In this document: positions 1,931 to 21,226 of the stretch, in pieces
Position numbering within the stretch: position 1 is the first letter of the stretch
Layout of the letters: the number at the start of each line of letters is the position of its first letter
The notes under the pieces: model-generated
Seen by the model: the letters and a program-made list of their open reading frames with translations, nothing else
Told to the model about the DNA's origin: nothing
Databases searched by the model: none
Source: a virus
Reading direction: 5' to 3' (one strand)
IMG/VR virus record: IMGVR_UViG_3300037138_000029
Coordinates: 1-25,582 of that record
DNA length: 25,582 nt
Program-made: the position numbers and the translations under genes

Positions 1931-4168
1931 TTAACGCATGGGCAAGCTGTTTGTATAGTAAATTCGCATGAAGGCCAGAACCATGAATGCCCCGATGCTG
2001 TTTGTGCCTAAGAGCAAAGATGCCTGATCTGACCGAAGCCAAAACTTACAAAGTATTTCCTGCCCTGAGGCCCCGGAAAGCGTGACCGGGATTGCCGCCG
2101 GGACGACGCTTCGGAGATGGTCGAGGCCGTAAGCCGTCAGATTGAGCGGACCGTTTCCACTGACCCTGAGATGGCATCCGTGGTAATCGTGAACGGTGGT
2201 TGTGGTGTCCTGCGCCGCCGGGACGATGCCGGTTTCGTACAGGGCGCTTGTCCCCGCCGGATTGCCGCTCAGGTCCACGTCCTGGTGGATCACGGCATCC
2301 GAAGGCAGCACCCGGCGAATTATCCCCCCCGGATTGCTTTGCGCCGGAGCGTACCACGTCTCATCGGTGGCCGTAGCAAGGTTTCGGATCGTCGCGGATG
2401 CACCTTGGCGATAGGCGCTGAACCCGTTTAGCGAATAAAGCAGCGACCCTGGTTGCTCTCCGAGAGACACGTTCCAGGACATCTCGGCATTCGGGGAATT
2501 TGGAACGGCCACGCCGTCGCCGGAGTAGACACCATTCCCGGCGGCCGGAATTGTGAACGTGTTCGGTCCCGTAACGGTCGCGGTAAAGGTTCCGTTCGCC
2601 GCCGTGTTGCCGCCGACTCCCGAGAGAGTCACGCTCAGGCCGGTTTGGAACAAATGTGGGTAGAGTTGCACCGCGGCGCCGATCTGAACCCCGGTCGTGA
2701 TGACAATTGGGTTGGTATTCGTCGCATTCGTCACCAGAACCTTCAGCGGGGCCGTGACGCGGATTACCCGGTCAAGAGAATCGTCCACGATGCCCACCTG
2801 GGTAGGCGCTCCCCAGTTGATCCGGTTCCAGTCCGGCGACTGCCAAAAGGATAGCGGGAGTGTCGGAAACGCGCCGCCCCGGTAGGAGAAAAGCCCCTTC
2901 TCGGAAGCGAGCAAGATCCTGCCGCCTGAAGACAAGAGGCATGACGGCGTGAGCACGCCCACGGAACCGTCTACGCGCTGTGGAGGCGTCCACGTGGCCG
3001 GTTGGCCCCCATTGTCGGAGCAAGCGTAGAGCGCCGAGAGCGTAGCGATGTAGCACACCTGGCCGATGGAGCACCCGTGAACCGGGATCTGCTTTCCTTC
3101 CAGATAAATCCCGTGATACGCCGCCGTAAGGGACTGGTAGGCGCTTGGGTCGGAGACGTAGACCACCGGAAAACCAGCGCCGTCCAACGTCACATAGCAC
3201 ATGCGGGACGAGTAAGCGAAGATCGCAGAGGGGAAGAATGGAGGCGTGCCGCTCAAGGATGAAGCGAGCACGTTTTGCTGCTGGGTCACGTTCGTGCCGG
3301 TCGAAGTGAGATCGCCGTCCGAGACGTTGACGACAACTCCGACATTCCCAGGAGAGGTTGGCCACGGCAGTATGGCTCCCGGGACGGCGTAGTATTCGGC
3401 CAGATTCGAGGCGGTAGTCATGACCACCTGAGCGAAGCCGCCCGGCGACATATACGAGGGGATCGACAGGCAGTCGAGGTTCACCAGCACTCCGTGGGCG
3501 CCATCCGTCGCAGTGTAGAGAATCGGGCTGAACAGTTGCGTGGTGGAATCGAACGGGCAGATCGGGCCGCTGTACCCGTTTCGTGTCGTGTACAGGAAGG
3601 CAATGCGGCGCGTTCCGGCTGTGACGACACCCGATCCCACGGTCATGTCTGCCGTGAGGGTCACTACCGCATTCGAGATGGGTTGCGCGAAGAGCTTATC
3701 CGAGTTCCCCGTGGAGGCGTTGTAGATGTATCCGGAAGTGCTGCTGTATCGGCCAGTGGCATCGCCAAATCCGAAGTACCCGCGGATGCCATCGGTGGCG
3801 AAGGACAGGTACTTGGCCCCCGTCACGGCAATGAGTCCGACGAACGAAGCGGATTGCTGACTGTACGCCTTCGCTCCCACGCCCGGAGCATAATAGACTG
3901 CGTAGCAGTCCTGCACGCCGCCGTTGTTGAAGTACCAAGGAAACAGCGAAAGAACGCCACCGTCCGCAGTGGGGAGTTGCACTACCTGCGAAGATCCGCG
4001 CCGGGTGGCCGCCTGGATGACGGACGCCGCCCCAGTGCCGATGGTGAAATCGAGATTCTGCGAATAGAGGCCGTGGGCGAGATCGAGGGCGTAGGGGTCC
4101 ACCGCTTGAGCGGACCCCTGAAACTGTACGATGTCGATTTCGCTATTGTTGCCTGGGAAGTAGGCCAC
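1931..4168 (-). CDS. Large beta-rich tail hub or nozzle-like structural protein
   Basis: A 745-residue protein of mainly beta-strand character. Repeated strand-turn units with Gly, Tyr and Phe run over residues ~40-470 and suggest a propeller. Residues 478-552 are one copy of the beta domain also found in the fibre-like protein (VTLSGVGGNTAANGTFTATV, then NTFTI and GVYSGDG), inserted before a C-terminal strand-rich region. It follows the adaptor and triple-repeat genes, where P22-like phages carry the propeller-shaped tail hub (gp10 class). That assignment rests on size, order and composition, since direct similarity could not be tested. It ends about 30 nt before the next small ORF. Confidence 0.8.
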   Translation of the reverse strand: MAYFPGNNSEIDIVQFQGSAQAVDPYALDLAHGLYSQNLDFTIGTGAASVIQAATRRGSSQVVQLPTADGGVLSLFPWYFNNGGVQDCYAVYYAPGVGAKAYSQQSASFVGLIAVTGAKYLSFATDGIRGYFGFGDATGRYSSTSGYIYNASTGNSDKLFAQPISNAVVTLTADMTVGSGVVTAGTRRIAFLYTTRNGYSGPICPFDSTTQLFSPILYTATDGAHGVLVNLDCLSIPSYMSPGGFAQVVMTTASNLAEYYAVPGAILPWPTSPGNVGVVVNVSDGDLTSTGTNVTQQQNVLASSLSGTPPFFPSAIFAYSSRMCYVTLDGAGFPVVYVSDPSAYQSLTAAYHGIYLEGKQIPVHGCSIGQVCYIATLSALYACSDNGGQPATWTPPQRVDGSVGVLTPSCLLSSGGRILLASEKGLFSYRGGAFPTLPLSFWQSPDWNRINWGAPTQVGIVDDSLDRVIRVTAPLKVLVTNATNTNPIVITTGVQIGAAVQLYPHLFQTGLSVTLSGVGGNTAANGTFTATVTGPNTFTIPAAGNGVYSGDGVAVPNSPNAEMSWNVSLGEQPGSLLYSLNGFSAYRQGASATIRNLATATDETWYAPAQSNPGGIIRRVLPSDAVIHQDVDLSGNPAGTSALYETGIVPAAQDTTTTVHDYHGCHLRVSGNGPLNLTAYGLDHLRSVVPAAIPVTLSGASGQEILCKFWLRSDQASLLLGTNSIGAFMVLAFMRIYYTNSLPMR

Positions 4169-8039: not shown

Positions 8040-8742
8040 GCCTATCCCTTTTCGCCCAGAACGGGAAACTGACGGAGCCGCCACGCTTTCCAGGGTTATC
8101 GTTCAAAAATGCGGGAAAACAATCACAGATCACGTCCCCAATCGTTCTGTCGATTGCGGCGTCCACGGCATCCTTCCCGTCGTACTGCTCCTGCAACCGC
8201 TCTTGGAACCCGAGCCGCGTTTGTTCCTTGACGCAGGCGATAAACCATTCGGTGTCTATCCAGTTTGGCTCCCGCGGCCCACCGTCGCGCGCTGGCAGGG
8301 TCGCGTTTGTCGGGATGCGCCAGCCGGCCGCCGGGAATGGTGCTCCTGGATTGCGTTCGCTCCAGAGAGCGATCACTGTTTCACGGGAAACAGTCGGACG
8401 GTCTACCGTGTCAAAAGTGCCACGAACTTTTCCGTGCGGGCTGTCGGTGCCGTAGATCAAATCCTCCGGCGAAAGCCACTTGGTGACCACCCAGGTATCG
8501 CGAGAGCGCATTTGGCGGTCGCGGCGGTACTCCGGAGTCGGCGTTTCGATGACAACGTTTTCAGTCCCGCCGCCGATGATGGGGACCGAGACCTCGACCT
8601 TTCGGACGATGGTACGGCCCGTCTTGAATGCTGGCCAGAAAAGGGCATCGCTGTTTTTCCACGCGAAGATCGGATGGCCGTCCGGGCGGCGCCCAAGTTC
8701 AGTTCCGAGCAGGTTGTTGAAGTTGGCGATTTCTGTGTTCAT
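8035..8742 (-). CDS. Unknown late protein
   Basis: A 235-residue soluble, charged protein. The start chosen is the ATG 2 nt after the stop of the upstream exported-protein gene (MNTEIANFNNLLGTELGRRP). The same frame is open further upstream, but that stretch is out of frame with the real neighbour and looks like its shadow. There is no good ribosome-binding site, so translation is probably coupled. Visible segments include PIFAWKNSDALFWPAF, a basic patch RRDRQMRSRDTWVV and a Trp-rich core. There are no Cys knuckles, membrane segments or recognised motifs. It belongs to the group of unknowns between capsid and adaptor. Confidence 0.8.
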   Translation of the reverse strand: MNTEIANFNNLLGTELGRRPDGHPIFAWKNSDALFWPAFKTGRTIVRKVEVSVPIIGGGTENVVIETPTPEYRRDRQMRSRDTWVVTKWLSPEDLIYGTDSPHGKVRGTFDTVDRPTVSRETVIALWSERNPGAPFPAAGWRIPTNATLPARDGGPREPNWIDTEWFIACVKEQTRLGFQERLQEQYDGKDAVDAAIDRTIGDVICDCFPAFLNDNPGKRGGSVSFPFWAKRDRL

Positions 8743-8744
8743 GT

Positions 8745-9296
8745 TTAGTAACTGGCGCGGCTTGAGCACTTTAGGTTCATCGGAGGGACCGGCGATGGAG
8801 TCCCGGCCCAATACTGGTCGCTGGGAGATCCGCTCGTGTATTGCGTGATCTGAATCGCCCACACGGGATTGTTCAGCAACGGCGCATTGGTCGCCACCAT
8901 CATGCCCGCGTCAGTGTAGGTGGCATTCGCCACGCCCGCCGTGGTGATCGTGGCCGTCGATCCTGATACGCCGGTCACCTTGTAGGTGGCGTTGAGCGCG
9001 GTCGCCACGGTGGCCCCAGTGACGGTGATTTGCGCCCCGACCCACAGATAGCTGGTGGAAGTAAAGGTGATCGTCCCGACATTCGAGGAAACGACAATGT
9101 TGGTGAGGGTCCCCCCCAAGGGGAACGTCGTCACCGGCTGCACGGCCTGCGCCTGGCAGACATACTGCGGAGTCGAACTTATGTCGAACACCGAAACGTA
9201 ATTGTTTGGAGGCGGCCCGCCGACCTGATTCGTTGCCTGAGACTGGGAGAAGGCCGCCGCCGCGAAAACGAGGAGAAAACCTATGGCTTTACGCAA
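8745..9296 (-). CDS. Exported protein with signal peptide, TTG start, shuffled beta domain
   Basis: A 183-residue protein. The best start is a TTG with AGGAG 7 nt upstream, giving MRKAIGFLLVFAAAAFSQ: basic n-region, hydrophobic core and cleavage near FSQ/S. The upstream in-frame ATG at 9410 would read through a transcription terminator and is rejected. Residues 66-132 carry the beta domain shared with fibre, hub and adaptor (VGTITFTSTSYLWVGAQITV ... ATYKVTGVSGSTATI). Two Cys (46 and near the C-terminus) could form a disulfide after export. It lies directly behind the capsid terminator with its own TATAAT. An exported protein inside a virion gene block is odd, and a cell-surface or envelope role is inferred. 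Confidence 0.75.
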   Translation of the reverse strand: MRKAIGFLLVFAAAAFSQSQATNQVGGPPPNNYVSVFDISSTPQYVCQAQAVQPVTTFPLGGTLTNIVVSSNVGTITFTSTSYLWVGAQITVTGATVATALNATYKVTGVSGSTATITTAGVANATYTDAGMMVATNAPLLNNPVWAIQITQYTSGSPSDQYWAGTPSPVPPMNLKCSSRASY

Positions 9297-9314
9297 TGCG
9301 TTACTCCTGTGCGG

Positions 9315-9323
9315 ATTATAGCA
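9315..9323 (-). promoter_or_regulatory. Extended -10 promoter (TGCTATAAT)
   Basis: The minus strand reads TGCTATAAT, a perfect extended -10 element, between the capsid terminator and the ribosome-binding site (AGGAG, 9304-9308) of the exported-protein gene. The predicted start falls at or just before the ribosome-binding site. Position right after an intrinsic terminator supports a genuine new start. No -35 is visible, as expected for extended -10 promoters. Confidence 0.6.
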
Positions 9324-9332
9324 CCCGCGTTG

Positions 9333-9366
9333 AAAAAAATCGGGGTGCCCGAAGTCCAGGCACCCC
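9333..9366 (-). terminator. Intrinsic terminator after the major capsid gene
   Basis: On the minus strand GGGGTGCC, a 9-nt loop and GGCACCCC form a perfect 8-bp GC-rich stem, followed by GA and seven Ts. It lies about 48 nt after the capsid stop. This is a textbook rho-independent terminator, and it would raise capsid transcript level relative to the genes beyond it. Confidence 0.9.
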
Positions 9367-9413
9367 ATTCCCAAGAAGACAATACAGGCAAGTGGCTGAA
9401 AATAAAGCACTTA

Positions 9414-10787
9414 TCACTGCCCGGCGGGAACCGCGAGCGAATAAAATACCACACCGCACCCCGAATCGACGGAGTAGAGCTGGCGCGTATTTTGCAGGTA
9501 GAACTGGAAGCCCGCTTGCGGGTTCCCGGTGGTCGCAGAATGCCCGATGAAGATTTTCTCTCCTTCGGGGGTCTGGATGAAGTCAACCTCCGCGAGTTGG
9601 CACCAGCCGAAGTTGGAGGGGTTCAACCAGTCCACTCGGGCTTTGCCGGCGTAGCGGGACACGTGGTGCGTGACGTCGCAGAAGGGGAAGGTGTCGCCGT
9701 AGTCGTTTCCGCCCGGCGCGATGTCGATCATTTTGTCGGCCTTGCCGCGGAGCCAGTTACTAATCGTGATTCCCTGCAAGTACGCCGAAACTCGTTGCGC
9801 GGTGTGGCAGACGCCGATGACGTCGGTATAGGCTTCCTCGTCGCGGCGCTGAATCAGTTGGCTTTTTCCGGCATATCCCAGCGAAGGGGTATAGAACCCG
9901 TTCTGCCCGTTGACGGAAGGCGTGACCAGTTCATAAGCGGTCGCATAGGACAGGCCGCCCAGCGAACCGGAGCTGGTGGTCGAATTGAAGGTGTAGATTC
10001 CGTTGCGCCACGAACCGGCGGCGGCGGTGTAGGCACCGGCGGCGGCGCCGAGCCCCATGTTCGGGAACATGATCTGGTCGGTGTTGACGGGGGTGTAGGT
10101 GCTGACTCCCTTCAACGTGATGGTGTTGCTGGCGTAGTTGATCGAGGCAACGCGGGCGCCGGCGAACTGCAACACGTTGGCCGTGCTGTAGATGTCCACC
10201 AGCATGTTCTGGCCGCGGATGCGATTGGTTGCGAAGGTGGCTTCCAGGTTGTACGTCACTTGGCCGCTGGAGATCACGGGAGATCCGGTCCCGTTGGCCT
10301 GCGCCAGCGTGCCGGTGGAATCGTTGAAAAGGCCGATCTCGTTGTAGATGGCCATTTCCGAAATGCCCTTTCCCAGCGAGAACTGCAAGGCGTTGACAAT
10401 GGCCTGTTTCCTGTCCTTCGTGGCCATGATCGCACGCATGGGCAAATTGAACCCAAGGTTGTTTTCAAAGGTTCCAAAGGCCATGAAAGCCGTGCCCATC
10501 ATCGAGCCGGTGCCAAGGTCGCCGCCGTCGAGGCTGAAGGCTTGGTAGTCGCCCCCGATATACAGGAGGGCGGGAACGCGCCAGGCGAGCACGGGGCCGC
10601 CGACGCTGTAGGTTGGGGAGCCGCCGGTTGCCCCGTCACTGAAAGCCGACACGTTGTGTTTTTCGGCCTGCTTGTTGAACAGATTTGCGAAGTTTGATTG
10701 CTTTTGCGCGAGCAGGTAACCCAGTTTTTGGTTTACCTGCTCCAGCATTACCGAGGTGACATTTGCCGTTTGAGCGGTGATGCCCAT
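9414..10787 (-). CDS. Major capsid protein (HK97-fold type, probable)
   Basis: A 457-residue protein that forms the head shell. It lies immediately after portal and scaffold genes, has a strong ribosome-binding site (AAAGGAG) and its own terminator, as expected of the most abundant late product. The N-terminal segment is helical and Gln/Asn-rich (EQVNQKLGYLLAQKQSNFANLFNKQ). A long spine-helix-like region follows (~120-150: RAIMATKDRKQAIVNALQFS). An Ala/Gly-rich insertion spans ~240-300. The C-terminal half is beta-rich with GEKIFIGHSATTG. Size and position match coat proteins, but HK97 fold assignment needs a structural comparison. The 78-bp leader contains a hairpin that pairs with the ribosome-binding site. 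Confidence 0.8.
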   Translation of the reverse strand: MGITAQTANVTSVMLEQVNQKLGYLLAQKQSNFANLFNKQAEKHNVSAFSDGATGGSPTYSVGGPVLAWRVPALLYIGGDYQAFSLDGGDLGTGSMMGTAFMAFGTFENNLGFNLPMRAIMATKDRKQAIVNALQFSLGKGISEMAIYNEIGLFNDSTGTLAQANGTGSPVISSGQVTYNLEATFATNRIRGQNMLVDIYSTANVLQFAGARVASINYASNTITLKGVSTYTPVNTDQIMFPNMGLGAAAGAYTAAAGSWRNGIYTFNSTTSSGSLGGLSYATAYELVTPSVNGQNGFYTPSLGYAGKSQLIQRRDEEAYTDVIGVCHTAQRVSAYLQGITISNWLRGKADKMIDIAPGGNDYGDTFPFCDVTHHVSRYAGKARVDWLNPSNFGWCQLAEVDFIQTPEGEKIFIGHSATTGNPQAGFQFYLQNTRQLYSVDSGCGVVFYSLAVPAGQ

Positions 10788-10791
10788 TTGA

Positions 10792-10819
10792 GACTCCTTT
10801 GGGGTGGCCCGGTGGAGTC
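10792..10819 (-). promoter_or_regulatory. Hairpin covering the capsid ribosome-binding site
   Basis: On the minus strand GACTCC (upstream) can pair with GGAGTC, which contains the GGAG of the capsid ribosome-binding site, across a 16-nt loop. The 6-bp stem could reduce or time capsid translation. This is weak evidence, from complementarity alone. Confidence 0.35.
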
Positions 10820-10864
10820 CGGCGCGGGTGGCTGCGTTTTTAGGTTAAGCCGTGCGTCGAGCTT

Positions 10865-12202
10865 CTACCGGAATATCGCCTTGAATTGGCGGTCCCACTC
10901 GTCGGAGGAGATCCGCTGGGGTTGTCCATTTTTCCCCACTGGAGCCTGGGGCGATGCGGAGGGGCGGTCGGTGCCGCGCTGTTGCGGGGCTGCCTGACGG
11001 CCGCTCGGCTTGCCGGGGGTCTGTGAGGTGGCATTGACGTACTTCGCGGCGATTGACGGAAGTACGCGGTTTGCCCTGGACAAAAAATCTGCATGATACG
11101 CTTGAACACGCGGTTGCAAACTTCTGCCATCACGCGAACCTGAGTGCCAAGCCGTACCGTAGTCCTGCATGATGGCGTCAGACTGCTGCTTATGCTCAGT
11201 CCACCATTCGCTCTGTCGGAGGGTGGCCCCGACTTCATCATGAATGCTTTTTTTGATGGACCTATACGCGATATCGCTGTATTTCGCCTTGATGGGTGCC
11301 AGGATTTTATCCAGAGCCGCATCAATCTTCTGAAATTTCGGGCCGTCCAGAGAAGAGGTTTGGAAACCTTCCGAATCTCTCTGCAACGCAATGCTTTGGC
11401 GGTTATCGAAGTCAGCTCGCTCTTGCTCCCACGCGGTACGCGCTTGCGCTTGAGGGTCGGCCTGCGGCAATTCCTTCTGGTAGTGCCCCGTCAGACCCCA
11501 CTCGACCGCCTGCGCGTCTTCCAGGTGCGTTGGATTTTGAGTCTGGGCGGCCTTGGCGTAGAGGGATTCGACCAGCGATTTCCCGGTGGACTGAATGAAG
11601 TTTTGGTAGGCCGTCGGGTTGGTCTGCCGCAAAACTCCCGGTGCCATGGTCAGCATTTTCTCGAAACTGCGGGAGAATGTCGCCCGCGACTGCGGGTCCT
11701 GGTGACTCGCTCCGCTCCAAAAGTCCAGCACGCTCTTGACGGCCCGATCGCTTCCAAAAGTCCAATCGTTGTACATCGTGCGGTGGTCAAAGGCCTGTTG
11801 GCTGGCGGATTGCGCTTCGGCCGGCGTGGCGAATATCTGGCTGACTTGCTGGCTGTACTGCAATGCGCCTTGGACTCGCGGCAGTTCGGCCTTGGGCACC
11901 TGATAGAAATTGCCGTCTGGCGATAGTTGCCACGGGGACTGGTTGGCATCGGCCCTTGGCTGGGAGTCTCCCTGCGGAGCTGTGTCCTGGGTCTGCGGTG
12001 CGGTCGGCGCATCGCCGCCGGGGATTTCCTGGGAGCCTTCGGAAGGCAGCGAAGAATCGCCGCCAGCTTCGCCACCAGGAGTCTCATCGGCAGATGCCGA
12101 ATCGTAAGCGTCCCCCAAGAGCGAACCGAGGTCGAGGTCACCGGTGCCGCCGGGGGGTGCCCCCCCCCCAGCGTCTCCTAATCCTAGTGAAATTGCTGCC
12201 AT
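10865..12202 (-). CDS. Probable scaffolding protein
   Basis: A 445-residue protein directly upstream of the capsid gene. The N-terminal ~110 residues are Gly/Asp/Glu/Ser/Pro-rich and disordered. Residues ~115-390 are strongly helical, polar and coiled (AFDHRTMYNDWTFGSDRAVK, DKILAPIKAKYSDIAYRSIK). The C-terminus is Gln/Pro-rich and ends with a short basic-aromatic helix (DEWDRQFKAIF), typical of the coat-binding end of scaffolds. No protease motif is apparent. The ATG has no ribosome-binding site. Instead a CRISPR-repeat-like hairpin ends 7 nt upstream, so initiation is unusual. Function is assigned from gene order and protein character. Confidence 0.75.
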   Translation of the reverse strand: MAAISLGLGDAGGGAPPGGTGDLDLGSLLGDAYDSASADETPGGEAGGDSSLPSEGSQEIPGGDAPTAPQTQDTAPQGDSQPRADANQSPWQLSPDGNFYQVPKAELPRVQGALQYSQQVSQIFATPAEAQSASQQAFDHRTMYNDWTFGSDRAVKSVLDFWSGASHQDPQSRATFSRSFEKMLTMAPGVLRQTNPTAYQNFIQSTGKSLVESLYAKAAQTQNPTHLEDAQAVEWGLTGHYQKELPQADPQAQARTAWEQERADFDNRQSIALQRDSEGFQTSSLDGPKFQKIDAALDKILAPIKAKYSDIAYRSIKKSIHDEVGATLRQSEWWTEHKQQSDAIMQDYGTAWHSGSRDGRSLQPRVQAYHADFLSRANRVLPSIAAKYVNATSQTPGKPSGRQAAPQQRGTDRPSASPQAPVGKNGQPQRISSDEWDRQFKAIFR

Positions 12203-12209
12203 ATCTGTG

Positions 12210-12243
12210 GTTTCAATCCACGCGCCCCTCTACGAGGCGCGAA
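12210..12243 (-). CRISPR. Solitary type I-C-like CRISPR repeat (single repeat unit)
   Basis: The minus strand reads TT, CGCGCCTC, loop GTAGA, GGGGCGCG, then TGGATTGAAAC. The stem is 8 bp with one T-G wobble. The final 11 nt are the exact type I-C 5' handle (TGGATTGAAAC), directly after the stem base where Cas5 cuts pre-crRNA. The total is 34 nt, against the usual 32, with TT in place of the usual leading GT. No second copy, array or cas gene is in the window. It lies in the 117-bp gap before the scaffold gene, in sense with late transcription. It is therefore a single repeat unit, not an array. Confidence 0.75.
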
Positions 12244-12319
12244 ATTCCAAATACTGTGGAAAGGGTAACGCTTTACGCGGAGGATTGCAAGTTGTGCGTC
12301 TCGCAATGCGGTATAGGCG

Positions 12320-12640
12320 TCATTCCTCGACCGTCCTTTTTGCCACGAATTCATCGAATTCCTGCCGCGCGCCGCCGAGAGAGGAGTTGAAATAGCGCTT
12401 GCCTTTTGCCGCGGCCATGGCCCAAGCGGCATACCGAAAGTTCGTCCGCGCGCCGGTATAGTTCTCACCCGTCGCGCGCTGGCAGGCCCCGCCGCCGATA
12501 TCGACCTCGGATTCATCGAAATGGTCGCGATGTGCCAGCGACGGCAGCGGAGCGCCGATCTTTTGCGATGCGGTCGCGCCGCGCAACGCCGGGTGAATGG
12601 CGAGCGCGGTAAGGATCTTGGCGATAAATTCTTTCAGCAT
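12320..12640 (-). CDS. Small unknown protein between portal and scaffold
   Basis: A 106-residue protein starting 3 nt after the portal stop. It has no clear ribosome-binding site, so it is probably translated by coupling. The N-terminus is an amphipathic to hydrophobic helix (MLKEFIAKILTALAIHPALRG). A His/Asp/Glu-rich centre (HRDHFDESEVDIGGG) and an aromatic, basic helix (RYAAWAMAAAKGKRYFNSSL) follow. No family is recognised. It neighbours the solitary CRISPR repeat, so it is one of the small proteins worth testing for an anti-CRISPR link, but nothing in its sequence shows that. Confidence 0.75.
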   Translation of the reverse strand: MLKEFIAKILTALAIHPALRGATASQKIGAPLPSLAHRDHFDESEVDIGGGACQRATGENYTGARTNFRYAAWAMAAAKGKRYFNSSLGGARQEFDEFVAKRTVEE

Positions 12641-12643
12641 GAC

Positions 12644-15049
12644 TTATTGTACTGGCGGCGGTGGCATCTTGGGCGGCATCCCGCCGGGCGGCACCGGCAC
12701 TGGGACCGGCATTGGCTTCGGTTGCGGCGGCTGGATCACGGCCTGCACTCCGGGCGGCTCGATTCCGGCGTTCTCCAGCGCCTCGGTAACCGCCGGAGAT
12801 CCGAGATCCGATCCTTTGAGAGCAACCGACACACTGGCCTTGATCGGCGGCTTCGGCGGCGGCGCTTGAGCCTTTTTCTGGCACGCCTGCCCGTACAGTT
12901 GCAGGTTCTCGTAGCCGTTCGGGTTGCCCTGCTCCAGCTCGAAATTATTAACCAGATACTGCTGAACCAATTTCGCGCAGAAATCGAAATCGTCTTCCCA
13001 CTCCGGCTGGACGGAAGGCTGTTTCGGCCCCGGCGATCCATCCGGGTTCGCTGGACCCGGTTGCGCTTCCTTGGACGCCAAGCGCCCGATCACATCCATG
13101 CACTTATCGCGCTGGTCGAGGTGGGGGATGTGCATGCCCGGCATGTCCAGCAATTCCTTGATCTCGGGGATATTGAGCGGATCGTCAAACCCAAAAGCCT
13201 TCAGGATTTCGGGAGATTTATCCATCATCCACATTGCGAGATCGCGCCGCTGGCCCCACGTCATCGGCACGGCTTCATCGGCCTCGAAGTGATAGTGCCC
13301 CTCTTTTAGGTCTTGGATCGCCAGAGTGACCGTATCGAATTTCCCGTATTTATTGGCCGTTTGGCTGGTGAATGCCAGGACACCATCCTCATGTTCGGCC
13401 AATAGCTTGCACCCTTTTTCGTAGGTGCCTTCCCAGCATCTTCCAATCATAACCCAAGTGATGGAGAGTTGCCGGATGGCTGCGTTCGTTTTCAGTTCGC
13501 TCTGCCGGGCCGTAGGATCGTCGGTAGCGCCGCCCCAAATAACTGGAGTCAAGCCGGTACGGTCCTGAGCCTTTTGTTCCAATTGCGAGAACCACGGAGC
13601 GATCTGTTCGGAAAAGGTCAAAGGCGGCAGCCGGTAAATCAAATCTGCTAAAGTTCCCCCAGGGGGCCGAACGGCTGGGATCAAATCGCCTGGATTGTCG
13701 CGGCGCCGCGCCCAGGCGTCCATATCCACGCGAGTGGGGTCCGCAATGCCGGGTTCATTCGAGCGCGCGATGTTTTGCTGGCACTGATTCAGGATGTCAT
13801 TTGACAGATCCTGGAATTGAATCCAATCCTCGCCCAGCGGCTCGCACATGATCCGGCTGGTGGGCTCCGGCTGGCATTCTTGCCAGTGGTCGTAGATTAC
13901 CCGATTCTCCAGGTCGATTACGTGACCCTTTATTGCCGTGATCCGAAGGCCGTCCGGGAAGTTCTCTTTCAGGAGTTGCCGGTCAGCCTTCTCTGCCACC
14001 ATTTCATACATGGCTGGAGACCAATCTTCCTCGATAATCGACCAGCGATTTTCGCGCTTCGGACGAACCACGCCGATTGGCGATGCCATTGAGGAACGGA
14101 TACTCTCGCCGTACAGAAGCGATACGGATTGTTCTTCAAAGGCGCTGTCTCCATCCTTGATCGCTTGGCGCAGGGCATCCCCAAATCGCTGCAAAAGTCT
14201 TGCCTTGTGCTCTTCCCGTTCTCTCCGAATCCAAAGACATCCCGAAGCTCCCTTGCGTCCGTCCGTATCGAGCGGAACGCTTACCTCGCTTGCGTCCGTC
14301 AAATCAATTTCGATGCCGCCCTTCGGGATGCGTGTTGGCGGGAGATCCTGCGGGACATCGGCTTGCGCCGGGTCCTGATATGACGCTTGGGACATATCCC
14401 CGGTACAGCTTGGGCATGACTCTGGGCGCGCATCTCCAGAGGCCATCTCTCCGCAGTCTGGGCACTGGAACCCGCCACCGAGTTGCACTGATTCCGTGCC
14501 AGTTTGCGGGATGTCCTTCCAGCCGTATTTTGTGGAGTCCTCCACCCATTCGATCGTCAGAAAACTCGTGCCGAAATTGAACAGGCTGTATACGAGCCAT
14601 AGATTCAAAACCTGAAGTTCGCATTGCTGCCGCATGTACATGGCGGCATTGTTGGCGGCCCGTGCTCCGGCGATATCCTTTTCGTCGGACGGGTCGTTGG
14701 GAACGGCTACGGCGTTCGGGATGCGTGTCCCCAGGACTGCCATCGTTTTTCGGCAATAACCGCGGTAGTCGTTTTGGGTGTAGTCGTAGGAACCGCCGTT
14801 TCCACCGCCGGGGAAAATCGAGCCGTCTATTCCGGTGGCGTCCACCAGGCCACCGTAAAGCGCCGGCGCGAAATTCTGCAAATCCCGATAGTACAGGCTC
14901 GCTTTGTGGATCTTCCGCAGAATCCATACGCGGTCGATGTCGGATTCGTCCGCCATCTCGCTTGACATCACGCGGGCGATGGGTTTGGCTAGCTGGGCGA
15001 TCAACTGCTCTTTCGTCGGGGTCGGCGCGGCGTCTCCCAGGACTTCCAT
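12644..15049 (-). CDS. Portal protein with zinc-ribbon insertion
   Basis: An 801-residue portal, the size of P22-type portals (about 725) plus a tail. It forms the DNA-entry ring. Features include an N-terminal helical region, DRVWILRKIHKASLYYRDLQ, a Gly-rich segment ~80-90, a long helical core with WFSQLEQKAQDRTG (~480-500), and a C-terminal barrel-like helix region. A zinc ribbon (C196-PD-C199, C212-PS-C215) is inserted at ~194-218, which is unusual for portals. The last ~80 residues are Pro-rich (PKPMPVPVPVPPGG). Its ATG shares one base with the TAA of the preceding coiled-coil gene (TAATG). The assignment rests on size, order next to scaffold and capsid, and portal-like composition. Confidence 0.85.
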   Translation of the reverse strand: MEVLGDAAPTPTKEQLIAQLAKPIARVMSSEMADESDIDRVWILRKIHKASLYYRDLQNFAPALYGGLVDATGIDGSIFPGGGNGGSYDYTQNDYRGYCRKTMAVLGTRIPNAVAVPNDPSDEKDIAGARAANNAAMYMRQQCELQVLNLWLVYSLFNFGTSFLTIEWVEDSTKYGWKDIPQTGTESVQLGGGFQCPDCGEMASGDARPESCPSCTGDMSQASYQDPAQADVPQDLPPTRIPKGGIEIDLTDASEVSVPLDTDGRKGASGCLWIRREREEHKARLLQRFGDALRQAIKDGDSAFEEQSVSLLYGESIRSSMASPIGVVRPKRENRWSIIEEDWSPAMYEMVAEKADRQLLKENFPDGLRITAIKGHVIDLENRVIYDHWQECQPEPTSRIMCEPLGEDWIQFQDLSNDILNQCQQNIARSNEPGIADPTRVDMDAWARRRDNPGDLIPAVRPPGGTLADLIYRLPPLTFSEQIAPWFSQLEQKAQDRTGLTPVIWGGATDDPTARQSELKTNAAIRQLSITWVMIGRCWEGTYEKGCKLLAEHEDGVLAFTSQTANKYGKFDTVTLAIQDLKEGHYHFEADEAVPMTWGQRRDLAMWMMDKSPEILKAFGFDDPLNIPEIKELLDMPGMHIPHLDQRDKCMDVIGRLASKEAQPGPANPDGSPGPKQPSVQPEWEDDFDFCAKLVQQYLVNNFELEQGNPNGYENLQLYGQACQKKAQAPPPKPPIKASVSVALKGSDLGSPAVTEALENAGIEPPGVQAVIQPPQPKPMPVPVPVPPGGMPPKMPPPPVQ

Positions 15050-15564
15050 TATGCGACCTCGGGTGTCATCGGCTCATTCATAGAAACGCCGCTGGGTGCC
15101 GTAGGCGCCGGGGGTTTTGCGGAGCGCTTGAATGCCGGGTGCAGTTGCGTCAGGAGAGCCATGTCCATGTCGGCGCTCATTTTTCGGAGATTCTGCATTG
15201 AGCGTACCGCTCCGGCGGCAGTATCCTCGGAGCGCCTGAACTGCGCCATGTCCGGCGGCTTCTCTTCGGCGCGCGGTTCCATCAGTTTCAGGTTGAGTGC
15301 GTCGAGGCTTCTCAGTCGCTCTGACATCAGCGCCTTGAATTGGTCGCGCGAGTCGGACAACTCCAGTACGAGCCGTTCCACTTCCGCGCGCCGCTCGCCG
15401 GATATCGCTTCGGCTGAGATTCGGCGGGTTAACTCGATTTCATATCGACGCTCGCAGTCGTTCATGGCCGCTTCCATGGAGCGCTCGTGCGAGATTTTCT
15501 CCTGGAGCGCGCGTTCGAGAGCTGCGATCCTATCGGTTTGTCGAAGAATTGTCCACAGGCTCAT
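15049..15564 (-). CDS. Coiled-coil late protein
   Basis: A 171-residue protein. Residues ~8-105 form an almost continuous charged coiled coil (TDRIAALERALQEKISHERS, AEVERLVLELSDSRDQFKAL). A Met-rich helix follows (MQNLRKMSADMDMALLTQL) and then a Pro-rich tail. Its ATG overlaps the preceding stop (ATGA), and its stop overlaps the portal start (TAATG). Synthesis is therefore tied to the portal and the Cys4 protein, and an assembly or portal-associated role is likely. No family is recognised. Confidence 0.8.
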   Translation of the reverse strand: MSLWTILRQTDRIAALERALQEKISHERSMEAAMNDCERRYEIELTRRISAEAISGERRAEVERLVLELSDSRDQFKALMSERLRSLDALNLKLMEPRAEEKPPDMAQFRRSEDTAAGAVRSMQNLRKMSADMDMALLTQLHPAFKRSAKPPAPTAPSGVSMNEPMTPEVA

Positions 15565-15914
15565 GATCCCGAGTCATCCCCACTAGCCGGAGGCCCGGCA
15601 GAATCATCGTCGGCGTCTGGGCCAGACTCCTGCGATTCATCATCGGGCACGGCCTCGAAGAATTTGGCGCAAGCATCGTCCGGCTGGAAGACTCCTTCGA
15701 CCTTCGCGCAGTCGCCAGTTTCGACATCGTACATGGCACAGTCTATGCAGTGATTCTCCGCGCCCACGAATCCGGCCTCGTCTCGACTGGCCTTCGCGCC
15801 AGCAACCTTTTCCGGCGTTCCTGGGGGAGGCATCCGGCCACTGGGTGCGCTTTTCGGAACGGGGGCAGACATAGCGATTCCCGAATCGCTACCGGGCGGT
15901 GGCATTCGAGCCAT
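15561..15914 (-). CDS. Small Cys4 metal-binding virion-associated protein
   Basis: A 117-residue protein. Residues 1-50 are Pro/Gly/Ser-rich. The central motif is C56-ID-C59, C69, C82, with the signature C..C..Y......CAKVEGVF.PDDACAKFFE, a pattern seen in small phage head-region proteins that bind a metal or cluster. The last 30 residues are Asp/Ser-rich and very acidic. It has a good ribosome-binding site (AGGAG, 6 nt) and an extended -10 motif just upstream, so it opens the portal-scaffold-capsid transcript. It ends in an ATGA overlap with the coiled-coil gene. The metal type and role are not determined. Confidence 0.8.
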   Translation of the reverse strand: MARMPPPGSDSGIAMSAPVPKSAPSGRMPPPGTPEKVAGAKASRDEAGFVGAENHCIDCAMYDVETGDCAKVEGVFQPDDACAKFFEAVPDDESQESGPDADDDSAGPPASGDDSGS

Positions 15915-15932
15915 GGTGTTCTCCTGTTGGAG

Positions 15933-15941
15933 ATTTTAGCA
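15933..15941 (-). promoter_or_regulatory. Extended -10 promoter (TGCTAAAAT) for the head gene block
   Basis: The minus strand reads TGCTAAAATC, then about 9 nt to AGGAG and the ATG at 15914. It matches the layout at 9315-9323 closely (TGCTATAATC, AGGAG, start). It is in a 57-bp divergent gap and would drive the Cys4, coiled-coil, portal, scaffold and capsid genes. Confidence 0.55.
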
Positions 15942-15959
15942 CTTTTGCCGCCATTGGGT

Positions 15960-15965
15960 TAAAAT
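15960..15965 (+). promoter_or_regulatory. Possible -10 box (TAAAAT) for the plus-strand beta-helix gene
   Basis: TAAAAT ends 6 nt before the ATG at 15972, with a poor -35 (TTAGCA, 18-bp spacer) that overlaps the divergent minus-strand promoter. If real, the mRNA would be leaderless, which fits the lack of a ribosome-binding site before this ATG. Confidence 0.35.
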
Positions 15966-15971
15966 TCAGCC

Positions 15972-18083
15972 ATGTACCGAAAAACATTGCAGGCGATTTT
16001 TGCTTTTGTGGCCGTCGCTGGCGCCCAGCAGATAGACTGGATCAGCCAAGTCAGGAACAAGCCATTTTTGAGTGCGTCTGACTACAATTTCCCCGCGCAG
16101 AGGCCCGCCGTCAATCTCTCCGCGCACGGCGTCAACCAGTCGATTCCCTTGTCTCCATGCCCACTGGGGGTAAACGGCTCGGACACCGCCCACTATCTCT
16201 ACATTGCGGACAGCCCCAACTCGGAGGCGGTGCTTATCACGGGAGGCACCTGCACCAGCGGTGCTCTCAGCGGCACGATCACCGTAACGCCGAACAACGG
16301 GCACTCCGGCAACTCCTCCTGGACAATCGCGAGCGCCACCAACGGGCAGCAGGAGGCCGTGGTTGTCACCCCCGGAGGAGGGCAAGTTCTTCTGCCGCCC
16401 CAGGCGCTCACGGACTACGCCACCGTGACGCATGGCGCGTATCACCAGTTTTTAGGCCAGGGGTCTGGCGCGACGTTGGTGTCCTGTCTGCCCCTCGGGG
16501 CATCGCCCTGCTACGCCTACCAATCCGCGATTCAGTCGATGGCGTACGACGTCGATTCCTCCATCGCTTACAGCAACTTCACAATCTACGCCCAGAGCCC
16601 AATCGCGTTGAACAGTCTGACGCCTCCCGGCGGATCGAACTATCAGGGCAATCTCAAGGGCGTCAAGATCCAGGACATGAACCTGCAAGGCACCTACGCC
16701 ACCGCGACGGATGTCAACCGCTGGACCAATGTGGTGCCCTCCGCGGCCACCGTGCAGGCGTTCGGCGTCGGATTCTCCTGCGGCCAATGCTTTCGGGCCT
16801 GGATCTCGCACAACCTGATCGAGAACTTCGGCATAGGGATCTACTATGACGGCGACGAAGCAGCCATCGAAAACGAGAACCGTATCGATCTCGACGGCTG
16901 GCTGATCTACATTGACGGAACCCCGTTGTCGAGTATCTGGAGCGGTAACCAGAATGTGATCGCGGGGAACAAGCTGGCGGCCATCGAGCGCATGGGGGGG
17001 GTGGTTCTCAATGGAGCGTTGAGTACTCGCGTTCTGAACAACTACTTCGAGTCCTATTGCCCGTCAAGCGTAATGGTCAAATCGACGGCGGGATACAACC
17101 TGCAAATCGCCGGAAACCGAATTGACGATCCCAATAATTCCTCCCTGTGCGCCACCGGCGCGGCGAACTCGACCCCGTTCATTAATCTGGACGACAAGTA
17201 TAACGAAGAGATCACCGGCAACAGCATGCAGATCGGCCCCAACATTCCTCCCCCCATGGCCTTCGGGACCACCTATGCGTCCTATTCGACGCAAGATCTC
17301 TATTCGATTCACGACAACGGAACCACCTGGCCGAACCCCACTGGTTTCGCTACCCAGCTAGACGGACTCGGACCCGTCGTTTATCCGGTGCAGCCGCTTG
17401 CCGTGGTGGGCGCCGTAAAACCGTATCTCTGGAGCGCCAACAACAGCGGGGGCGGATACGACAGCTATGCCGGAAATCCCTGGGTGGCCGACGGCGTAAC
17501 CGGCCGCTACGTTCTCAGCCAAACGCTGGGCGACATCAACGCTTACTTCTATCTCCAAACGAGCGAGATCACGGGGTTTTCCGTCAATGTAACGGCGCGC
17601 TATGACGGGGTCCACTCGTCCACTTTTCTGCAAGTGCAATATCAGGGGTCGAGCCTGGTTACGCTCTACGCCAACAACCTCACTTTTTCCAACGCCTCCG
17701 AAGTGCAGACGCAGACGGCTTACGCGACCATCCCGAACGGGCAGCCGCTCAACGGGTACTTCATCGTCACGGTGAATGCGGGGCAGGCCTACATCGAATC
17801 CGTCGAAATGGCGCCCCAGCGGATATTGCCTACCGGGGGTGTAGTGGCAAGCGCCTCGACCATCACCCCGAGCGGCTTGGCTTTCCCGTTATCTGGCACC
17901 GCCGCGATCAGCACCATCAACCTGCCCTCTCTGTCTTTTGCGGGGCAGGTCTGCGCGATCCCCACCGGCATCTGGACCACCGCGACGGGCGGAAATATCG
18001 CGCTCGCTTCCACCGCGATAGTGGGGCGGCAACTCTGCTGGACCTATTTGCCGGGGCAATCCCTCTGGTACCCGAGCTACTGA
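15972..18083 (+). CDS. Exported beta-helix-like protein on the opposite strand
   Basis: A 703-residue protein with a clear signal peptide (MYRKTLQAIFAFVAVAGA, cleavage near GAQ/Q). Residues ~200-430 have short repeated strands with Asn and Gly ladders (NLIENFGIGIYYDGD, NRIDLDGWLIYIDG, NVIAGNKLAAI, RVLNNYFES, LQIAGNRIDDPNNSS), typical of a right-handed parallel beta-helix as in tailspikes and polysaccharide lyases. Residues ~490-620 look like a jelly-roll carbohydrate module. The end is a strand-rich tip with paired Cys. It is the only plus-strand gene inside the late block, with no ribosome-binding site. Catalytic residues could not be assigned. It may be a surface-modifying moron or an unusual spike. 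Secretion sets it apart from ordinary virion spikes. Confidence 0.85.
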   Translation: MYRKTLQAIFAFVAVAGAQQIDWISQVRNKPFLSASDYNFPAQRPAVNLSAHGVNQSIPLSPCPLGVNGSDTAHYLYIADSPNSEAVLITGGTCTSGALSGTITVTPNNGHSGNSSWTIASATNGQQEAVVVTPGGGQVLLPPQALTDYATVTHGAYHQFLGQGSGATLVSCLPLGASPCYAYQSAIQSMAYDVDSSIAYSNFTIYAQSPIALNSLTPPGGSNYQGNLKGVKIQDMNLQGTYATATDVNRWTNVVPSAATVQAFGVGFSCGQCFRAWISHNLIENFGIGIYYDGDEAAIENENRIDLDGWLIYIDGTPLSSIWSGNQNVIAGNKLAAIERMGGVVLNGALSTRVLNNYFESYCPSSVMVKSTAGYNLQIAGNRIDDPNNSSLCATGAANSTPFINLDDKYNEEITGNSMQIGPNIPPPMAFGTTYASYSTQDLYSIHDNGTTWPNPTGFATQLDGLGPVVYPVQPLAVVGAVKPYLWSANNSGGGYDSYAGNPWVADGVTGRYVLSQTLGDINAYFYLQTSEITGFSVNVTARYDGVHSSTFLQVQYQGSSLVTLYANNLTFSNASEVQTQTAYATIPNGQPLNGYFIVTVNAGQAYIESVEMAPQRILPTGGVVASASTITPSGLAFPLSGTAAISTINLPSLSFAGQVCAIPTGIWTTATGGNIALASTAIVGRQLCWTYLPGQSLWYPSY

Positions 18084-18145
18084 TGGTTCACCGGCGGGAC
18101 CGGAGCTGGCGCAACGGACGTTGTTGCGGGAACCTGCACGGGGAA

Positions 18146-18607
18146 TTAGGCTGTCGGCACGGAGAACGAGGTATCGAAGAAAATCCAGTGCGTTCCGTTC
18201 CATTGGATTGGAAGCACTGTCGCGCGACTCGCGCCATGGTCCACCGCGAAACCACTGTCGCAGATGAGATTTGACGGAAGCGCTACCGTGCGGCCTCCGG
18301 TGGCGTCCTGCACCAGCCTGATCCACAATCGCTGCCCGGTGGGGATTGTCGAGACGCCCGTGTAATCCAGCGTCATTGAGGCGACGTTCCCGGTGAGAGT
18401 CACGCTGATTACGTCGGCTACTGAAACGTCGATCACGAGGGCTGAAGCGTAAGAGACGGTCGCTTGCGTCAACTGCGAACCGGACGACACTGACGCGATG
18501 AAGCCCAGATTGTCTTGCGGGTTGAACAGCCCGAACGGGATGAGCATCGGCTTGCGTTCTGCCGCTTGGAAGTTTACGAGCTTGCCGAAGAAAGCCGGGC
18601 TGCCCAT
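18146..18607 (-). CDS. Fibre-tip or decoration-like beta protein
   Basis: A 153-residue strand-rich protein. The core (~75-125) has the familiar fibre/decoration pattern: SVTLTGNVASMTLDYTG, a GQRLWIRLVQDATGGRTVALP strand pair broken by Gly, then a Trp-rich end (IQWNGTHWIFFDTS). Such modules occur at the ends of phage fibres and in head-fibre proteins. The ATG is 3 nt after the mini membrane gene upstream. It converges on the plus-strand beta-helix gene with a 62-bp gap in which no convincing terminator is seen. A virion surface role is inferred. Confidence 0.75.
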   Translation of the reverse strand: MGSPAFFGKLVNFQAAERKPMLIPFGLFNPQDNLGFIASVSSGSQLTQATVSYASALVIDVSVADVISVTLTGNVASMTLDYTGVSTIPTGQRLWIRLVQDATGGRTVALPSNLICDSGFAVDHGASRATVLPIQWNGTHWIFFDTSFSVPTA

Positions 18608-18787: not shown

Positions 18788-21226
18788 TCACCGTCCGAGG
18801 GAAAATTTTCGCGACTTGCGGGAGCGGCTTCCAGCGGCAGTAGCCTGGGGCCACTGCATCGCCCGGATATCCGGCGCGTTTGCCATGGTGCGCGGGGCGC
18901 ATACCGCCAGCAGCAGCACTTCAACGAAAGCCGGAGGGTCCTGGTCGCGGCGAAAGGCCCCGAGTTCGGCAATCAGACACTTGCACTCCGGGGAAATCTT
19001 CAACTTCGGCCAATCGCCGGTTACCTTTCCTTCCGTCATGCCCATGTAGCGGTGGTACTCGGCCAGGTTCTCTTCCGCCAGCTCAAACGCCCTCGATCGG
19101 TCGTATTCGAGTTTCTGGAAGTCCGGCGGTCGGAACGCCAACAGCTCGCGAAGTCGGTCCACAGCGGCGTCCCCCTCTTCCACCATCTCGGTTCGGATGC
19201 GGCCGGCGCGCAGCGTCTCGCGCGCCTGGTTGCGAGCGTCCCAATCGGCTTCCTCCGGCTCGAATGACAGCAGCGATTGCTCCATCAGTTCCGCCCAGCA
19301 GCCGACCGGCTCTATCGGGGCGAACGCCGATTTAGGAAGCAGAACATCATAAGGTTTTTGCGTGACTTCCTTCATCCGAACCACTTTTTTCCCGTTGTTC
19401 AGGTCGGCCAGGATCTTGCGCCCGAGCTCCCGGCCCGCAACGGTGGCGTCTATTCCTTCGAGAGGCAGTTCGCCAACCACGCGCATACAACCGCGCGGCA
19501 ATTCCGCCACCCATAGGGCCGCCCTGCCTGGAATGACAGCCACGAACCGGCGCATCCACGGCGCGACTGTTTGGGAGTCGATGTGAACGGCATTCGACGG
19601 TTCCCCAAGACGCGGCGAGACGCGGAACTCCGGCACAGCGGTGCGTTTGGAGGAATCGTACAGGCGCTTGAGGGCTTGGCTCATGGCGTCGGTGTCGTCA
19701 TCATGCTTCGCCGCGGCTCCCGCGGCCAGCTCAGCCAGGAACTCCCACACCCATGGGAAAAGGTCGGGATTCGGCAGAAACACGTTCCCGGCCTCGACGT
19801 ACCCGGATATCGCCGCCACGCGCGACCACTTTCCTCCCGCTGGAGGGACTGGAATTATTCCAGGGATCTCATTTTTCAGGGTGTCGATGACCGCCGGGCC
19901 ATTGGCCGTATCCTCCACCAATTTCTCCGGGCACGGATAGATTTCAGTCACGTTGCGAACGGCATCCAGAGTCTCGGGGAAGGTCCGGTGTCCGTGATCG
20001 CGCATCATCAGGTAAGCGTTGGCTCCGGTACGCGCCCACACATGCCCGGCCACGTAATCGTTTTCCGAACCGCCCTTGAAAGCCATGTCCCAGGACTGCA
20101 CCACTTGCTCGAATGCGGACGGCAACTCCACCGGCAGACGCTCAACGAACGATCCATCGGAGAGCGAGATCCGAATGGCCCGCGGGCGGCCGTCCTGATC
20201 CTTCACTCCCGCGCCGGGAGGATTGTAAAACTGGAACCACTCGCGATTGAGCCCGCTCTTGCCTCCCGCCGAAGGTTCCTGGTTGAACTGCGCCGGGTAG
20301 TGGTTCTTGTGCTCGCGCTTCGCCGTGGCGACATCCTCCGGCCCGAAGCGCGCCGGGAACATCAACTCTCCGAGATGCGTCCGGGGGTCCGGGTACGCCA
20401 GTGGGCCGATGGTGTGGGCACCCCGCCATTCCAGCGGGATGACGCATTTATCCCAGCCTCCCAATTCCTCCAAGTATTCCGTGAGATCGGCGCCGTAGCT
20501 GGAGCGCTGTTGGACGCATAACGCCACGTCAGTTCTCGGGTCGATGGAGCGGCTTGCCATTGACGCCGAATACCATTCGCGGACGTTCTGCGGGTAGGTT
20601 TCCGGTTCCTTCACCATCTTCTCAATGTCATTCGGATCATCCATCAAGCGGCAAGAACCGCCCTCTCCAAGGACGCCGCCCTCGACGGACGCGATCATGC
20701 TGAAGCCGCCCTTGTCGTTATCAAAGCGGCCCTTTTCGTCTTGGTCGGAAACGATGCTGAATTTCTTTCCCCAGCGGGCCTGATACCACTGGCTCTTAAT
20801 GAGTGCCCTAGTTCTGCGAGAGTCCCGGCGCGCTAGATTTAAACCGAAGGAAGCGGCCAGGAACTTCTCCACAACTCCCGGCGGAACGCCTTTCGACGGA
20901 ATGCCTTCCTCATCGAGCCAGCGCCACGCGCGGAACGCCACCAGGACGGTGGACTTCAGGCTGCGTGGGCTGATGTTGATGATGAGCCTGCGGATGTCGC
21001 GCCGGGCCAGAGCTTCAAGGTGCTCTACAAGGCAAGAAATGTGCCAATTATCCTGAAACGGGATGCCGGGCATAAGCGTTGGCCATGCCTGCTCCAGGAA
21101 GAATTTCAGATTGCCGACCGCGTAGTGAGCGTCGGACTCAATCTCCATCGCACGGATTGTTTCCTCGGCGCCGCGCAGCGCGGCATCGGGGGTGAGTCCG
21201 CCGGAGAACTTCCTACGCCCGGCCAT
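18788..21226 (-). CDS. terL: Terminase large subunit with long C-terminal extension
   Basis: An 812-residue packaging motor; usual length is 450-600. The ATPase has a Walker A-like segment at 82-93 (IINISPRSLKST, in place of a PPRHGKS type) and Walker B at 193-198 (RLMDDP). The nuclease domain has D380 (QSWDMAF), E438-D439 (LVEDT) and the acidic cluster 509-513 (DDDTD). All are in the expected order, so the first ~530 residues are a complete TerL. Residues ~555-780 are an extra domain that resembles a second RNase H-type fold without its catalytic Asp (PGRAALWVAELPRG, then LKISPECKCLIAELGAFR). It overlaps the preceding gene by 14 bp and has no ribosome-binding site, so it is probably coupled. 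Confidence 0.95.
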   Translation of the reverse strand: MAGRRKFSGGLTPDAALRGAEETIRAMEIESDAHYAVGNLKFFLEQAWPTLMPGIPFQDNWHISCLVEHLEALARRDIRRLIINISPRSLKSTVLVAFRAWRWLDEEGIPSKGVPPGVVEKFLAASFGLNLARRDSRRTRALIKSQWYQARWGKKFSIVSDQDEKGRFDNDKGGFSMIASVEGGVLGEGGSCRLMDDPNDIEKMVKEPETYPQNVREWYSASMASRSIDPRTDVALCVQQRSSYGADLTEYLEELGGWDKCVIPLEWRGAHTIGPLAYPDPRTHLGELMFPARFGPEDVATAKREHKNHYPAQFNQEPSAGGKSGLNREWFQFYNPPGAGVKDQDGRPRAIRISLSDGSFVERLPVELPSAFEQVVQSWDMAFKGGSENDYVAGHVWARTGANAYLMMRDHGHRTFPETLDAVRNVTEIYPCPEKLVEDTANGPAVIDTLKNEIPGIIPVPPAGGKWSRVAAISGYVEAGNVFLPNPDLFPWVWEFLAELAAGAAAKHDDDTDAMSQALKRLYDSSKRTAVPEFRVSPRLGEPSNAVHIDSQTVAPWMRRFVAVIPGRAALWVAELPRGCMRVVGELPLEGIDATVAGRELGRKILADLNNGKKVVRMKEVTQKPYDVLLPKSAFAPIEPVGCWAELMEQSLLSFEPEEADWDARNQARETLRAGRIRTEMVEEGDAAVDRLRELLAFRPPDFQKLEYDRSRAFELAEENLAEYHRYMGMTEGKVTGDWPKLKISPECKCLIAELGAFRRDQDPPAFVEVLLLAVCAPRTMANAPDIRAMQWPQATAAGSRSRKSRKFSLGR

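Follow-up and report, generated by a model that had tools for sequence, protein, structure and literature searches.

In type I-C CRISPR-Cas systems, Cas5c processes the pre-crRNA, and Cas5c together with the neighboring Cas7 clamps the 5' handle, at which point assembly of Cascade starts (PMC7684278). Viruses carry solitary repeat units (SRUs), of which 2,103 have been reported using the criterion of ≥90% identity over ≥90% of a known CRISPR repeat; these units are often located directly downstream of a promoter (PMC10651486). Solitary repeats that sequester Cas proteins in nonproductive complexes are termed RNA anti-CRISPRs (Racrs); RacrIF1 has been examined in detail, while RacrIC1 of a Bifidobacterium pseudocatenulatum prophage, which lies 11 nt downstream of acrIC5 and forms a bicistronic RNA with this gene, blocked type I-C immunity (PMC10651486). 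CRISPR repeats that potentially use host Cas proteins are also found in viral mini-arrays, which viruses employ against one another and in which repeats are accompanied by one or two spacers (PMC11656645). SRUs and type I-C Racrs are, therefore, already published, and the repeat described here adds one more case.

We analyzed a 25,582-nt stretch of viral DNA (positions 1 to 25,582 of the IMG/VR record IMGVR_UViG_3300037138_000029), referred to here as the window. The initial annotation had described, within positions 12203 to 12319, an 8-bp hairpin directly followed by the exact 11-nt handle of type I-C crRNAs. We confirmed both elements on the minus strand at 12210-12241. The annotated span is the entire intergenic gap, and the repeat proper, which is intergenic in the IMG/VR record, extends over 34 nt at 12210-12243 (minus strand, TTCGCGCCTCGTAGAGGGGCGCGTGGATTGAAAC), as defined by cmsearch and the identities to cellular repeats. 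Its hairpin (12221-12241, minus strand; CGCGCCUC-GUAGA-GGGGCGCG) has an 8-bp stem with one G-U pair and the loop GUAGA; it is present in the MFE and centroid folds alike, and the stem covaries in cellular repeats. The 11-nt 5' handle TGGATTGAAAC (12210-12220, minus strand) lies directly 3' of the hairpin, matches the type I-C handle exactly, and occurs once in the whole window. Stem and handle are, thus, of the kind recognized by type I-C Cas5.

For the cmsearch analysis, we used a covariance model of 11 distinct 33-nt repeats from cellular type I-C arrays or solitary cellular copies, from which the phage copy was left out. This model aligned 12243-12210 end to end with 39.8 bits and an E value of 9e-10, while the runner-up in the window reached 9.0 bits and an E value of 1.6. 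We note that the score of 39.8 bits was obtained with our own model, while the published SRU bit-score cut-off of 41.1 belongs to the database of its authors (PMC10651486). An Rfam search identified no family at threshold. Short hairpins are common, and the hairpin might have resembled a CRISPR repeat by chance; given the E values of the repeat and of the next match, we rejected this explanation, to which we assign next to no probability, in agreement with the original assessment that hairpin and handle together were unlikely to arise by chance. These results confirm that 12210-12243 is a complete type I-C repeat, beyond the hairpin and handle alone.

The comparison with cellular repeats supports the same assignment. 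The best cellular identities were 31/34 (91%) over the full length, to arrays in metagenome-assembled genomes (MAGs) titled as Bacteroidota-type (L059, L062, and L065). This identity lies within the range used to define SRUs, and the similarity extends beyond the handle, which overturns the objection anticipated in the initial annotation that the resemblance might end there. A pattern scan of 84,980 species genomes, which required an identical stem and allowed loops of 3 to 7 nt, yielded no array with an identical repeat; the sole identical copy was the phage itself inside a MAG. The repeat GTCGCGTCTCGTAGGGGACGCGTGGATTGAAAC of the Acidobacteriaceae genome G286 is identical to the phage repeat at 30 of 34 positions and shares with it the handle, a U-G wobble at the corresponding position of the stem, and a near-identical loop (CUCGUAG) with the same start, GUAG. 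It differs from the phage copy in being cellular and in lying downstream of cas5c, cas8c, and cas7c in a decayed array: on contig 27 of this genome (L199), the three cas genes are followed by one good and one decayed repeat, as if an array had been lost.

The initial annotation also held that the repeat is present once, with no spacer-repeat partner. Scanning 8262-18204 for the handle with up to two mismatches revealed no further copy, and the model search of the window yielded nothing credible as a second repeat, in support of this claim. Like a mini-array, this locus has a repeat in a viral genome that could use Cas proteins of the host; while mini-arrays have at least two repeats around a spacer, it has a single repeat and no repeat-bounded spacer. 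The statement of the initial annotation that cas genes are lacking holds for the ten proteins scanned, none of which matched a Cas protein, in a window that is a genome fragment with related records of 64-65 kb.

Other phage contigs carry more than one solitary type I-C repeat. Two or three are present per contig in L004 and L006 (one 50-kb contig), L020, and L030, where they are at least hundreds of bases apart and do not form an array; dosage is one possible reason for such multiplicity. An unrelated phage (L201; same contig as L009) has two different solitary type I-C repeats (at ~970-1013 and 3455-3486), each 13-15 nt before a start codon of apparent tail operon genes. Both are missing from L202, an 83% identical relative of L201, giving two more pairs of filled and empty sites.

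The repeat analyzed here is shared by six further contigs, five from IMG/VR and one binned in an Acidobacteriaceae MAG (isolate palsa_421). It is solitary in each of them, as it is in the window, and its surroundings are 98-99.9% identical across these contigs. By contrast, five more distant relatives, in which a 457-aa protein is 78-82% identical, have no copy anywhere in their records. The initial annotation had named absence from related phages at this site as a refuting observation; this absence applies to the five relatives at ~80% identity in the capsid-like protein, where it marks a lineage-specific gain and does not refute the idea. A search of known phages and plasmids identified no relatives of the window phage. 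Alignment with the five relatives, which have the empty site, defined an insertion of 49 nt (12205-12253, minus strand), consisting of the 11 nt TATTTGGAATT, the repeat, and one copy of CACAG. The insertion has CACAG on either side; the left copy of this direct repeat (12254-12258, minus strand) is in the probable transcript start region, as judged from its position relative to a −10-like hexamer. By parsimony over the five empty-site relatives, the alignment favors that the repeat was gained in the lineage of the window.

The insertion is located after a promoter-like motif and before the start codon of a 445-aa gene. The motif comprises a −35-like hexamer, TTGCAA (12285-12290, minus strand), and a −10-like hexamer, TACCCT (12262-12267, minus strand). 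All five distant relatives, although they have no repeat, have TTGCAW and the same 17-nt spacing in the leader alignment of the 445-aa gene, followed by TATCCT, TACCCT, or TATCAT. The resulting motif, TTGCAW-N17-TAYCMT, is present a single time in each phage in this orientation, compared with ~0.1 expected occurrences. A strict sigma-70 scan did not call it, and hence we refer to it as promoter-like. In the relatives, the start codon is located 9-11 nt after the −10-like hexamer, and the motif there looks like a promoter for an almost leaderless mRNA; the repeat would, therefore, occupy a new 5' leader. In the window, 18 nt separate the end of the motif from the repeat, which is in the sense orientation with the downstream gene and ~11-15 nt after the expected transcript start.

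The insertion would turn a nearly leaderless start into a leader of ~50 nt with a strong hairpin. We therefore considered that the hairpin affects how stable the downstream mRNA is or how it is translated, perhaps via cutting by the host Cas5. In several other phages, too, a start codon is closely preceded by a solitary type I-C repeat, in line with this idea. However, a start codon was found within 30 nt in 21 of 69 cases in the sense orientation versus 11 of 69 in the antisense orientation (p = 0.11, not significant), and we do not claim a general rule of repeats in leaders. Moreover, an ordinary stability hairpin needs no exact type I-C handle. Based on these considerations, we find a role as leader element improbable.

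A different explanation is that the repeat is an inert relic, i.e., a host-array repeat that was copied by accident, through illegitimate recombination at CACAG, into a spot where it is tolerated and has no function. The insertion is recent and lineage specific, the flanking CACAG copies point to a short-homology event, and lone stray type I-C repeats also exist in Acidobacteriaceae chromosomes. Also, the identity of the repeat among the six contigs proves nothing about its maintenance, because these contigs are 98-99.9% identical throughout. On the other hand, the stem pairing is intact even though none of the cellular repeats that we found is identical in sequence, the handle is exact, and a conserved promoter-like motif lies ahead of the repeat, which reads in the sense direction; inserting DNA into so tight a leader, in front of a gene that appears to be essential, would also be expected to be costly. 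For these reasons, we regard an inert relic as rather unlikely.

The gene directly downstream of the repeat (10865-12202, minus strand) encodes a 445-aa protein rich in Asp, Glu, and Gln that is scaffold-like by position. The start of this gene is conserved in relatives, and profile searches with the protein identified no confident family. Near the start, a G run on the minus strand (12157-12168) has a length of 10 versus 11 among the near-identical contigs; this difference would shift the 445-aa frame and may be an assembly error or variation. The 457-aa protein (9414-10787, minus strand) is the most conserved protein (79-82% identity in relatives) and is major-capsid-like by position; it had no family match, and its fold model was unusable, with a mean pLDDT of 30.5. 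Upstream of the repeat are a small gene for a 106-aa protein (12320-12640, minus strand; defined as an ORF), with homologs of 36-42% identity in three relatives, and a gene for an 801-aa portal-like protein (12644-15049, minus strand), for which synteny and a weak, sub-threshold match to SU10_portal (E value 0.0013) point to this role. Residues 194-220 of the latter form a zinc-ribbon-like CPDC...CPSC insert with a sub-threshold rubredoxin-like match. The terminase large subunit (18788-21226, minus strand) matched phrog_38 with an E value of 1.7e-62. In the tail region, the proteins encoded at 215-1621 and 1931-4168 match E1_FCCH of ubiquitin-activating enzymes (PF16190); the match of 215-1621, with an E value of 6.6e-10, is above the cut-off, and a shared small beta domain is the probable reason for both matches. 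Overall, the assignment of the repeat to a late operon in the initial annotation is plausible from the neighborhood, and the operon with the portal-like, capsid-like, and scaffold-like genes is presumably late; profile searches confirmed the terminase alone among these functions.

The initial annotation offered a second function, in which the repeat yields a crRNA with the following phage sequence as guide. With crRNA-like processing of the RNA, the guide would be at 12175-12209 (minus strand), as defined by position only. The usual type I-C PAM is TTC. In a mini-crRNA scenario (ALTERNATIVES), these 35 nt would guide the host Cascade against insertion-free sister phages, while the carrier would be spared because the repeat replaces the PAM. 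The inferred insertion-free ancestor has TTC (12259-12261, minus strand) directly before the guide, which has a chance of ~1 in 64. This weak hint was noticed after the fact, and several observations speak against it. Among 66 other solitary type I-C repeats, TTC was present ahead of only 2, and neither of the empty sites seen by comparing L201 with L202 has it; the nearest empty-site relative has ACT at the PAM position and mismatches in the guide; and the collection has no contig with the guide and without the repeat. Thus, the crRNA part of the initial annotation found no general support, and we consider it very improbable. Even less probable, in our view, is a capture event in which a repeat of a host array entered the phage through recombination at the protospacer targeted by its own spacer (TTC followed by CACAGATATGG...). 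If this were true, the PAM of the carrier would have been destroyed, and the 5' end of the operon mRNA would be a crRNA against PAM-bearing sister phages.

Instead, we favor an RNA anti-CRISPR function of the solitary unit, directed against type I-C systems, with a probability of roughly 0.6, because repeat, handle, and orientation are all in place together with a likely promoter. A transcript from the promoter-like motif would begin ~11-15 nt before the repeat. During infection of a type I-C host, the leader would fold into the repeat hairpin, which host Cas5 would bind and cut at the stem base, leaving a 5' end at 12220 (UGGAUUGAAAC...) and a handle-bearing RNA that continues into the gene. 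This RNA may then tie up Cas5 and Cas7 in complexes that lack a useful guide, and fewer working Cascades would result. The dose of the decoy would track the activity of the operon promoter. Several points count against a Racr. In the predicted fold, the handle can pair with sequence 3' of the repeat. The motif in front of the repeat is no strict sigma-70 match, and the genome scan yielded no cellular array with an identical repeat. In addition, with the repeat absent from all more distant relatives, long-term selection for it is not evident. Finally, should the operon be late, its RNA would be made only once the greatest need for an anti-CRISPR has passed, which also speaks against this function.

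The host of the phage is probably a soil member of the Acidobacteria. The sole hint is the one phage contig binned in one Acidobacteriaceae MAG, and phage contigs are easily mis-binned. In this MAG, we detected neither cas8c nor a type I-C array, which counts against a Racr. Two other Acidobacteriaceae genomes have remote homologs of the 457-aa protein (E values of 2e-10 and 4e-8). Among 300 Acidobacteriaceae genomes, 19 contain cas8c, and the 14-nt repeat end is present in 41, about half of which have real arrays; one genome, G286, has cas5c-cas8c-cas7c together with the closely matching repeat. That the candidate host family contains type I-C systems speaks for a Racr. A comparison of 460 spacers from type I-C arrays with the phage gave matches of chance length only.

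Relative to the described systems, the locus fits the published SRUs in sequence, structure, orientation, and place behind a promoter-like motif, as had been proposed; like viral SRUs, it is a full repeat that is solitary and intergenic, with no cas genes seen among the ten proteins scanned (PMC10651486). It differs from them in that five empty-site relatives here reveal the gain and its exact place between motif and start codon. Similarly to RacrIC1, it is a phage-borne solitary type I-C repeat that would be cotranscribed with a protein gene. RacrIC1, however, was shown to be active and accompanies acrIC5, whereas the phage repeat precedes a presumed structural gene as part of its 5' leader, an acr gene was not recognized, and the activity of the repeat is predicted from sequence features (PMC10651486).

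The insertion provides a rare before-and-after view of a CRISPR repeat entering a phage genome by a short insertion. Because it lies between the motif and the start codon, it would place a decoy under an existing promoter with no new gene. For a decoy located in the 5' leader of a structural operon, timing becomes a question; such a decoy may protect replicating or later-arriving genomes and not the first one. If active, the repeat would widen the range of RNA anti-CRISPRs to phages whose probable hosts are Acidobacteria, a little-studied group.
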